A DNA stretch of 64,000 nucleotides from Natrarchaeobaculum aegyptiacum (GTDB lineage: Archaea; Halobacteriota; Halobacteria; Halobacteriales; Natrialbaceae), in contig NZ_CP019893.1 of the NCBI RefSeq assembly GCF_002156705.1, positions 372,001 through 436,000 on the forward strand, written 5' to 3'. Made by a program: the position numbers and the translations under genes. Below the pieces are notes generated by a model that saw only the letters and a list, made by a program, of their open reading frames with translations, was not told where the DNA came from and did no database searches. Shown here one piece after another: positions 41,427-47,164 of the stretch. Each line of letters opens with the position of its first letter. Position 1 is the stretch's first letter.

Positions 41427-41879
41427 TTAGTTGATGCTAGCGATCGTAGCATCTGCCTCCGCTTCGTCAAGACTGTCTGGGTTGTCAGCTTCAACGTCTT
41501 CGCCGATGTAGGCGACAACATTCACAGCTTCGGTTTCATCTACAATCGTGCTTGCACCTGTCCGGTTCAACATAGCTGGCTCAGGGCTGGAGGTATTGTC
41601 GTTAATGACGGATCCGTTGCTAGCAACAACAGCGACGCCATCTGAGTTCCCCATTGACGTCAGGGACACGCTGACGTTACCGTCACCGATGGATTCAACG
41701 CTTACGCCTGCCTGCGGTTCTTCACCAACGCTCCCGCCGAGGTCGAGTACGAAAGCCGCAATCACAGCCGCGAGAATGACCGTGATTGCAACCATCAGGA
41801 TTACGCCAATAACTGGACTGACAGCTCGTTCGTCCTCCGATCCGACTAACTTCTTTGAGATTTGCTTTCCATCGAGCAT
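41427..41879 (-). CDS. Archaeal type IV pilin (PilA family), copy 1
   Basis: A 150-residue pilin. The charged leader [18 protein letters not shown] is cut by the prepilin peptidase before AVSPVIGVI, and the H-domain ([20 protein letters not shown]) is the conserved haloarchaeal PilA hydrophobic stretch. The remaining 90 residues are a variable head domain with several Asn-x-Ser/Thr sites (GNVS, NGS, NRT). A paralogue lies directly upstream at 42344-42835 with near-identical first 55 residues but different heads. It has its own promoter and long leader, so the two may be expressed separately. Confidence 0.92.
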
Positions 41880-42057
41880 GTGTATGCCAGCACCCGTGAA
41901 CGATCAGAAAGGATACACCATCGCCAACCCGAATGGTTGGGTGCGAAGGGATTGGGGGTTGCGACACCACGTCCCTCGCGCGCCACCTTCCTGCCGTCCG
42001 ATTTCGGTGCTGAATAACCGTTGGCAAACACCCTATATATAATTAGTTGTTAGTGTA
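41880..42057 (-). promoter_or_regulatory. Promoter and long conserved 5' leader of pilin copy 1
   Basis: On the minus strand a TATA element (complement of CTATATATAATT, 42033-42044) lies about 155 bases before the ATG, implying a leader of roughly 120-130 nt, unlike the leaderless genes elsewhere. Two blocks, 41939-41989 (51 nt) and 42005-42057 (53 nt), are identical to the leader of copy 2. Small indels between the copies change reading frames, which argues for RNA or DNA function over coding. Confidence 0.7.
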
Positions 42058-42343
42058 TCGTTCTGGTTAAAATAGGGTTCTAAGAGGTTTTCATAATTGA
42101 GAATCAGTAGAGGGTAGAACTGCCACAGTGACTGCTTGAACCACCTCACTAGGCTGTTTCCGTGAATAGACAATCGACATCCTCCAGAACCTTCTCTAAG
42201 CTGACGAAATATAGGTGACTTTCAGTCAGTATTACCATAGTGTACGTCTGGATAAACTGTACACAAATCTAGTCCTGCAGGATAACAACATCACGTATTG
42301 TCAGGAAACGTTGACAAAGAGTGGAAATCTACGCTAAGTTGGA

Positions 42344-42835
42344 TTACCCGATACTGCGAATCGTCGCGGTGGACTCCGCTGCGTCTAGATTGTCGTCACC
42401 GTCCTCAACATCAGTACCGATGTATGCAACGACGTTAGTCGCATCACCATCACCAGTGTTGACAATCACTTGTCCGCCGGTATTCTGAATGTGGGCAAAT
42501 TCTTCAGAGCCACCAGCAGTTGCATTATTTAGCTCGCCTTGTTCCAAGTTATACGTGTGTTCAACTCCGCCAGAGGAATTGACGATAGCGACACCGTCGG
42601 AGTTCCCCATCGACGTTACAGAGACACTGTAGTTATCTCCTTCAAGCGATTCAACGTTCACACCTGCCTGTGCCTCTTCACCGACGCTCCCACCGAGGTC
42701 GAGCACGAAGGCCGCGATCACAGCCGCGAGAATGACTGTGATTGCGACCATCAGGATGACACCAATGACTGGGCTGACTGCCCGTTCGTCCTCTGATCCG
42801 ATTAACTTCTTTGAAATTTGTTTTCCATCGAGCAT
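42344..42835 (-). CDS. Archaeal type IV pilin (PilA family), copy 2
   Basis: A 163-residue paralogue of the downstream pilin. Leader and H-domain ([18 protein letters not shown], then AVSPVIGVI and [15 protein letters not shown]) are almost identical to copy 1. The head domain differs after SMGNSDGVA and is some 13 residues longer, carrying the insert [16 protein letters not shown]. Start is the ATG at 42835; the frame is open further upstream through the leader, but copy 1 is not, so I reject that extension. The duplication unit is about 957 bases. Confidence 0.92.
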
Positions 42836-43013
42836 GGGTATGTAGCAGCACCCGTGAACGGTCAGAAAGGTTATCCCGGCTCCAACGCAATGACCGGGTG
42901 CGAAGGGATTGGGGGTTGCGACACCACGTCCCTCGCGCGCCACCTTTCTGCCGCCCGATTCGGTGCTGAATAACCGTTGGCAAACACCCTATATATAATT
43001 AGTTGTTAGTGTA
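42836..43013 (-). promoter_or_regulatory. Promoter and long conserved 5' leader of pilin copy 2
   Basis: The counterpart of 41880-42057. The identical blocks are at 42896-42946 and 42961-43013, including the TATA element (complement of CTATATATAATT near 42989-43000). Weaker similarity continues upstream of the TATA element (GCTTGAACC near 43091 and 42136), so the duplication included the upstream promoter region. Confidence 0.7.
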
Positions 43014-45427: not shown

Positions 45428-47164
45428 GTGAGTGAGGACCGTCAACGGGAGATCCTCGTCGGCGAGACGGACGACGGGTCGGACCTTCACCTCCCGGTGG
45501 TCGAACTTCTGACTGGTCGTGGTTTCGTCACTGGCAAGTCCGGATCGGGCAAGTCGAACACGGCCTCGGTGATCGCAGAAGAACTGCTCGAGGCCGGCTT
45601 TCCCCTGTTGATCGTCGACACAGACGGCGAGTACTACGGCCTCAAAGAGGAATACGAGATGCTCCACGCGGGTGCCGACGAGGAGTGTGACATCCAGATC
45701 GGCCCCGAGCACGCAGAACAGATGGCGACGCTCGCACTCGAGGAGAACGTTCCGATCATCCTCGACGTCTCGGGCTATCTGGACGAGGAGGTCGCCGACG
45801 AATTGCTTCGGGAGACGGCCAGACAGCTGTTCGTCAAGGAGAAGAAGCTCAAGAAGCCGTTCTTGCTGGTCGTCGAGGAGGTACACGAGTACATTCCCGA
45901 GGGCGGCGGTGGCGGCGAGACCGGCAAACTGCTGATCAAGATCGGCAAGCGCGGCCGCAAGCACGGCCTCGGAATTCTGGGGATCAGCCAGCGCCCTGCC
46001 GACGTCAAGAAGGACTTCATCACGCAGGCGAACTGGCTCGTCTGGCACCGGCTGACCTGGGACAACGACACCAAGGTCGTCGGCCGGATCATCGACACCG
46101 AGTACTCCGAACTCGTCTCCGAACTGAACGACGGGCAGGCGTTCGTCCAGACCGACTGGAACGAAGTCGACGTCCGCAAGATCCAGTTTCGCCGCAAGCG
46201 CACCTTCGACGCCGGTGCGACCCCTGGACTGGACGATTTCGAGCGTCCCGAACTGAAGTCGGTCTCCGACGCCCTCGTCGGTGATCTTCAGGACATCTCC
46301 GAGCGGAAAGAACGCGAGGAAAACCGGATCATCGAACTCGAGAACGAACTCGAGAAGAAAGAAAAACGGATCGAGACCCTCGAGGACGAACTCGAGAACG
46401 CGCGAGACATCTCGAATGCGGCCAAGCAGATGGCCGACGCACTCTCGAACCCGTCGATGGTCCAGACGCAGTTGCCCGAGGGAGGCGGCGAGGAGACCCG
46501 GCGGCTCCACGAGGAGATCGTCGAACTCGAGCGGGAGTGTGAGGTGCTCGAAGACGATCTCGAGGCTCGTGAACAGGAACTCGCGGAGGCCGAAGAGGAC
46601 GTCGAGACGCTCGAGGCGCTGCTGGAGTCCCGTGCGGAGACGATCGACCAGTTGCGTACGGAGAACGAGCGGCTTCGACGGCGGGTGAGCGAACTCGAGC
46701 GGGAGCAGTCCCCGACCGACGAGGCGACCGAGACCGGATCGGAGTCACCCGAGCCAGCAGAGGGGGGGCCAGAGCCGATCGTGCAGGCAGATGGCGACGA
46801 GATCGAGTTCGGCTACGTCTCGATCGACGACGGTGCCGGTCCGGCGGAGATCATCGTCGCCAACGAGCGCCGGGAGTTCGTCGAGTTGCTGGAGACGGTC
46901 GGCATCGCCGGAGACGTTCGGGCGGCGAGCGAACGGTCACGGTGTTCGTTCGAGACGGCGAGTCAGATCGTCGCGGAACTCACCCGCGAGGGGCCACTCG
47001 GGACCGCGACGCTCGCACCGCGGGTCGAGCGCTCGCCGGTGGCAGTCCAGAGTCTCCTCTCGGAGCTGTGCAGCGAGTCGGTACTCGAGCGCGAGGAGGG
47101 CCGTCGGTACGTCCTCGCAGAGACCGTCCGGTCGAAGCTGACGCTGGTCGAGGGGCGGCGCTGA
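45428..47164 (+). CDS. HerA-like ATPase with long coiled coil and C-terminal winged helix
   Basis: A 578-residue ATP-binding protein of the HerA/FtsK superfamily. An N-terminal beta-barrel-like segment is followed by Walker A GKSGSGKSN near residue 36 and Walker B LLVVEEVHEY near 145; the arginine and sensor region includes GISQRPADVKKDF. Residues 290-435 are a continuous coiled coil (ELENELEKKEKRIETLEDEL). The C-terminus (residues 505-575) is a winged-helix-like region (FETASQIVAELTREG, VQSLLSELCSESVL). The GTG at 45428 is the start. No NurA or nuclease is adjacent, so it may be a DNA or chromosome-handling motor or regulator on its own. Confidence 0.85.
   Translation: MSEDRQREILVGETDDGSDLHLPVVELLTGRGFVTGKSGSGKSNTASVIAEELLEAGFPLLIVDTDGEYYGLKEEYEMLHAGADEECDIQIGPEHAEQMATLALEENVPIILDVSGYLDEEVADELLRETARQLFVKEKKLKKPFLLVVEEVHEYIPEGGGGGETGKLLIKIGKRGRKHGLGILGISQRPADVKKDFITQANWLVWHRLTWDNDTKVVGRIIDTEYSELVSELNDGQAFVQTDWNEVDVRKIQFRRKRTFDAGATPGLDDFERPELKSVSDALVGDLQDISERKEREENRIIELENELEKKEKRIETLEDELENARDISNAAKQMADALSNPSMVQTQLPEGGGEETRRLHEEIVELERECEVLEDDLEAREQELAEAEEDVETLEALLESRAETIDQLRTENERLRRRVSELEREQSPTDEATETGSESPEPAEGGPEPIVQADGDEIEFGYVSIDDGAGPAEIIVANERREFVELLETVGIAGDVRAASERSRCSFETASQIVAELTREGPLGTATLAPRVERSPVAVQSLLSELCSESVLEREEGRRYVLAETVRSKLTLVEGRR

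Follow-up and report, generated by a model that had tools for sequence, protein, structure and literature searches.

The window analysed here, a 64,000-nucleotide stretch of the Natrarchaeobaculum aegyptiacum genome, encodes a compact HerA/FtsK-type ATPase in which the motor is followed by a coil and a C-terminal winged helix. The 578-aa protein is a variant within the FtsK-HerA superfamily and belongs to a clade distinct from HerA proper; no report of its architecture was recognised among the open-licence papers listed by literature searches. We tentatively read it as a DNA-anchored double-stranded DNA (dsDNA) translocase that would serve chromosome or replicon upkeep, and give this reading a probability of roughly 0.4. 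According to the discussion section of one study, archaea lack FtsK and HerA may act in cell division (PMC12977600). The motor bears on how DNA is moved, segregated and cleared in FtsK-less archaea, as an uncharacterised protein of unusual architecture present in most examined genomes of a genetically tractable group.

The gene (45428..47164, + strand, as are all protein features below) starts with GTG and is intact, with zero internal stops. A methionine lies within two columns of the GTG start in 26 of 35 aligned sequences, the 5' ends of the relatives having been picked by us. The intact reading frame together with the aligned relatives rules out an artefact or a pseudogene. The gene sits on the single contig of its genome and, as the first-pass annotation described, stands alone between a DUF7344 ORF upstream (164 bp gap) and a phosphodiesterase ORF downstream (136 bp gap); a GNAT/FemAB-like gene is also found downstream. 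Elsewhere in the window, at 41548-42983, two adjacent and similar type IV pilin-like genes (a segment of 19 protein letters) appear by eye to be a tandem duplication.

The motor has the marks of the FtsK-HerA superfamily of ATPases: a RecA-like core, Walker A and Walker B with the catalytic glutamate are all present. The protein was modelled with AlphaFold (AF2) from 35 sequences, its own and related ones (mean pLDDT 73.1, pTM 0.47); at this whole-protein pTM, the relative placement of the domains is not trustworthy. The ATPase core (aa 20-275; 45485..46252) is predicted to have a RecA/HerA-type fold without the HAS barrel or the helix-bundle insert. Walker A, GKSGSGKS (aa 36-43; 45533..45556), is invariant save S40 among the 35 aligned sequences, and Walker B, LLVVEE (aa 146-151; 45863..45880), aligns with the EE of HerA; K42 and E150/E151 never vary among the 35, which include the window's sequence. 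An SQRP motif (aa 187-190; 45986..45997) is common to HerA as well. Two Pfam families score above their cut-offs, DUF87 (the HerA central domain, E 8.8e-12) and HerA_C (E 2.2e-5), while the remaining Pfam matches listed are under theirs, and the PDB entry closest in sequence is the HerA 9x1l (E 1.1e-14). The initial description as a HerA-type ATPase with both Walker motifs is thus borne out. FtsK_SpoIIIE (PF01580) is absent among the best 25 of 43 Pfam families (down to E 0.053).

The modelled core matches SsoHerA (4d2i; Z 19.9, rmsd 4.1, 236 residues, 21% identity), TkoHerA (9x1m; Z 19.0, 231 residues, 24% identity), the STIV2 packaging NTPase B204 (4kfr; Z 16.8, rmsd 3.4, 202/204 residues, 14% identity) and FtsK motors (Z 14.0-15.1; 6t8b, Z 15.1). 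With both HerA structures it shares the RecA-like core, Walker A and B with the EE, and SQRP, but it lacks the HAS barrel, the helix bundle and a linkage to NurA, and has a stalk and a winged helix instead. B204 is similar as a compact motor that aligns over nearly its whole length, yet it is a motor alone, without stalk or winged helix. CedD of the Sulfolobales DNA import system is likewise a HerA-clade ATPase, but the window protein scores only 51.7 bits where the cut-off is 600 and has 35 residues before Walker A, whereas CedD is described as carrying an N-terminal and a membrane domain besides its C-terminal ATPase (PMC11868833).

Two accounts give HerA three domains, HAS barrel and helix bundle among them, and identify the HAS domain as the NurA-binding part (PMC12977600; PMC9960219). 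The 35 residues upstream of Walker A leave no room for a HAS barrel, and the 102 residues that separate the two Walker motifs imply that the helix-bundle insert is absent. In agreement, the fold match to 4d2i starts at chain residue 113 and that to 9x1m at residue 166, and the aligned model residues stretch over 363 and 393 residues of these chains, respectively. The NCBIfam HerA models score far below their cut-offs on the protein (NF040819, 52.3 against 970 bits; NF040937, 44.8 against 800). Lacking the HAS barrel, the protein would be unable to hold NurA in the known way. An alternative NurA partner of haloarchaea is therefore very improbable: no NurA match at E 1e-8 occurs among the called genes of 135 loci of the family, and, as described below, NurA frequently adjoins another HerA and is kept where the window protein has no strong match. 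The one point in its favour is that NurA does not adjoin this other HerA in the window's genome either.

The window's genome holds two more DUF87 matches above the Pfam cut-off. One is a separate 633-aa HerA (G000:C1:1263034-1264932; L130:5035-6936) with HerA_C and DUF87 above cut-off, on which the NCBIfam HerA models are likewise far under theirs. The other lies within a DptH-like protein of ~1800 aa (L131:28-5379; TIGR03237 E 9.1e-62, below cut-off), which an Orc1/Cdc6-like gene adjoins (L131:5475-6488; 173.7 bits, below cut-off). NurA is encoded at G000:C1:864037-864990 (in L133:6684-8093). Hence, the idea of a HerA stripped of its usual partners does not hold, as the genome has both a HerA and a NurA and the window protein belongs to another clade.

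A survey of 30 chosen haloarchaea, 26 of which lack a strong copy of the window protein, found the 633-aa HerA in 24 and NurA in 29. By our count, NurA and this HerA share a strand and lie no more than 5 kb apart in 16 of the 24 genomes; in six (the window's genome included) they occupy distant places on one contig, and in two they are on different contigs. NurA is retained in 25 of the 26 genomes that lack a strong copy, and the NurA family search was also positive in the H. volcanii control genome. These finds contradict published statements that H. volcanii has neither HerA nor NurA (PMC7776575) and that the two are not apparent in halophilic archaea (PMC12977600). For the haloarchaeal ancestry, replacement herA families and the loss of a nurA family were inferred in the relevant part of PMC7599335, whose families could not be matched to the proteins of our survey. 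Two easily confused things are now set apart, the window's clade on the one hand and true HerA with NurA in haloarchaea on the other.

Downstream of the motor, the 145-residue coil proposed in the first-pass annotation stands as a coil (147 residues; heptad contrast 0.80, matched by none of 300 shuffles) but not as a continuous one. Two helices, aa 281-339 (46268..46444) and aa 354-427 (46487..46708), are delimited by the AF2 model and the heptad test, and ~14 mostly low-confidence residues separate them. Among 21 proteins tested, a coil region was detected in all 11 of the window's kind (contrast > 0.6; 0-2 of 300 shuffles each) and in none of six membrane-tailed proteins. Two distant relatives, L198 and L215, which the tree places on long branches, also have a coil by the heptad test and, by eye, a wHTH-like end.

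A disordered, fast-evolving linker (aa 428-477; 46709..46858; pLDDT 33-38 per block) leads to the predicted MarR/ArsR-like winged-helix domain (aa 478-578; 46859..47161). Modelled alone, the C-terminal 108 residues reach pLDDT 93.5 and pTM 0.84. The predicted helix-turn-helix (aa 526-549; 47003..47074; helices 526-532 and 537-549) is followed by wing strands at 553-556 and 560-563, which is the usual order of HTH and two-stranded wing. All 50 fold matches listed have a winged helix (Z 8.6-9.9 over 60-97 aligned residues), and most of them are regulators of the MarR, ArsR and IclR types, which upholds the initial claim of a C-terminal winged helix; Foldseek gave a best E of 0.0019, with none below 0.001, and Pfam HVO_A0114 remains under its cut-off (E 0.0013). 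In an HHalign comparison that used 22 of 23 proteins, the tips of Natrialbaceae plus L081 matched those of families f7, f12 and f17 with a probability of 99.35 (E 6.3e-21, 93 columns), as opposed to 4.65 (E 0.0087) for the set from f4, f5, f6 and f17. The latter set likely carries a putative winged helix, placed by register only, and Pfam gave nothing useful on three of its C-terminal ends. Within the order, the tip is thus demonstrated to be homologous in only part of the families, which counts against the translocase reading.

A tree of 62 ATPase domains groups 35 haloarchaeal rows, plasmid copies included, in the window's clade (99/95). A hydrophobic C-terminal helix was found in 10 of 137 proteins screened, and all 10 fall outside this clade; three f6 and f10 proteins that have no such helix are outside it too. 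The 10 paralogues with the same motor and a membrane-like C-terminal helix are L200, L201, L202, L203, L084, L153, L157, L158, L159 and L163, with one common motor sequence in L084 and L163. A motor, a tail and an anchor would thus be the shared plan, and the separation of the helix from the window's clade favours a DNA-anchored translocase. The same holds for the rates of evolution: measured against four close relatives, the window's gene has a dN/dS of 0.02-0.05 in the motor, 0.15-0.19 in the coil, 0.23-0.81 in the linker and 0.31-0.49 in the tip, the tip evolving 7- to 17-fold faster than the motor. By these ratios, the motor is under extreme constraint.

The distribution of the protein is not that of a rare, lone gene. 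Of the 392 genomes of the order, 362 have a match at E 1e-10 or better, mostly a single one, as do 327 of the 345 genomes of good quality; by our count, 335 order-wide matches are stronger than 1e-120 and 27 weaker. This rules out a lone exotic and favours a role in general upkeep. When 11 genomes without a match at this cut-off were searched again, nine gave weak matches only (E 9e-10 or weaker) and two none, indicating that the gene is near-core and not universal. Some genomes rated 90-99% complete are without a strong match, which weighs against the upkeep reading. Across the phylum, 83 of 294 genomes match at 1e-18, 49 of them from the same order; in the other 34, the best matches are 30-44% identical over parts of the query.

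A near-core distribution also disfavours the defence role suggested in the first-pass annotation. An anti-invader HerA like those that accompany SIR2, DUF4297 or MADS components would account for the PADLOC HerA models (E 8.7e-24) and for mad8 of MADS, whose compact ATPase matches collinearly (aa 9-241, profile positions 4-287 of 314, E 3.3e-14), but common ATPase ancestry alone may produce such scores. The 314-position mad8 model has no room for a coil-wHTH tail, and the PADLOC scan of two neighbours of the gene in the window matched no model. Given the core-like distribution and the slowly evolving motor, a defence function is improbable.

Matches also occur in 48 plasmid records (40 listed), at least 22 of them haloarchaeal; among the haloarchaeal matches listed, H1-H21 are 62-92% identical and H31 covers 16% of the query. 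In several records the homologue lies near ParA, MCM, Orc or resolvase genes, and on a Haloarcula plasmid orc1/cdc6 is ~5 kb away. One relative was found among 51 candidate IMG/VR stretches, and its contig also carries, by eye, Orc1-like and ParA-like genes. The protein might thus have been a motor of plasmids or mobile elements, for replicon stability or transfer, that was later fixed on haloarchaeal chromosomes and secondary replicons. We regard this as unlikely since most genomes of the order hold one match, the window's copy is on the single contig of its genome and neither ParA nor Orc, MCM or resolvase genes turned up in what was read of three other plasmid stretches. Furthermore, 50,697 phage records yielded a single distant match, which, together with the single IMG/VR relative, speaks against a virus origin. 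On a Halobaculum plasmid (L174:1653-2684), the homologue and a gene with a DpdA domain (deoxypurine in DNA; E 2.9e-13) have 4 bp in common.

Gene neighbourhoods were compared at 135 loci, made up of a first set of 54, 45 genome or record stretches and 36 later ones that include distant relatives, paralogues and some true orthologues. The loci hold 128 distinct motor sequences, some represent the same place twice (L086/L204, L051/L168), and L054, one of an original 136, was dropped; neighbours were clustered from gene calls with a codon-bias filter and named partly by eye, with Pfam run on a few. No neighbour cluster common to all families was found among the 135 loci, and contexts vary by family: a phosphodiesterase is nearby in 53 loci and a convergent DegT aminotransferase in 42. 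The lack of a conserved partner gene counts against replicon upkeep.

An XPB/Rad25-like helicase is nearby in 49 loci, 48 times upstream on the same strand and then always in Natrialbaceae (one copy confirmed by Pfam), and 14 non-Natrialbaceae loci (families f4, f5, f6 and f17) have a PolY-like gene (a translesion polymerase, by eye) upstream in the same orientation. By this synteny, the orthologue in H. volcanii may lie near HVO_1302, which encodes PolY there (PMC7776575). Together with the kinship to HerA, the XPB and PolY neighbours suggest a possible, lesser alternative, namely a motor of DNA repair or recombination: the HerA branch would have specialised in haloarchaea to act on damaged or stalled DNA independently of NurA. 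By our gene calls, however, XPB is immediately upstream in only 15 of the 48 loci and PolY in only two of the 14, which looks like lineage-specific synteny. Moreover, neither gene is beside the window's gene, and the genome already has HerA and NurA.

For the upkeep reading, the pertinent neighbours are those of replicon maintenance. ParA is present in 15 of the 135 loci; in 12 Natrialbaceae loci (L086 and L204 being one place) it is upstream and divergent, 539-2262 bp away. On the tree its state changes at least four times, two of the changes being forced by well-supported branches, so these are not 12 independent events. In L154 and L155, two f10 homologues, an Orc1/Cdc6-like gene is 254-303 bp upstream on the other strand. 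These contexts, with those of the Haloarcula plasmid and the IMG/VR contig, favour the upkeep reading, and the ParA neighbours of some relatives weakly support chromosome or replicon handling. Against this, no ParA is beside the gene in the window, and the nearest Orc1/Cdc6 genes above the family cut-off are 417 kb and ~520 kb away in its genome, which dismisses an origin-proximal gene there.

The motor fold and motifs, the fold matches to FtsK, the stalk and the winged helix are consistent with the following arrangement. The N-terminal core would form an ATPase ring that pumps dsDNA, as its fold and invariant motifs suggest, and without a HAS barrel there would be no nuclease docking of the HerA-NurA type. 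The coiled stalk of each subunit, with its predicted MarR-like winged helix, may keep the ring on DNA, so the tethering proposed at first is possible in that the motor could be tethered through coil and winged helix; alternatively, the tip might read DNA ahead of or behind the ring. The likeliest job would be general replicon upkeep in haloarchaea, that is, the segregation, organisation or clearing of DNA.

FtsK and SpoIIIE follow a logic of motor plus anchor, and their gamma domain is a DNA-reading winged helix. The window protein resembles them in the motor fold but has no N-terminal membrane part, Walker A being so close to its N-terminus. It is rather doubtful, though conceivable, that the protein is the haloarchaeal functional counterpart of FtsK, a near-core dsDNA translocase that would be anchored on DNA by stalk and winged helix (on the membrane in other paralogues) and would segregate or clear chromosomes and megaplasmids. 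Such a role would explain the ParA and Orc neighbours.
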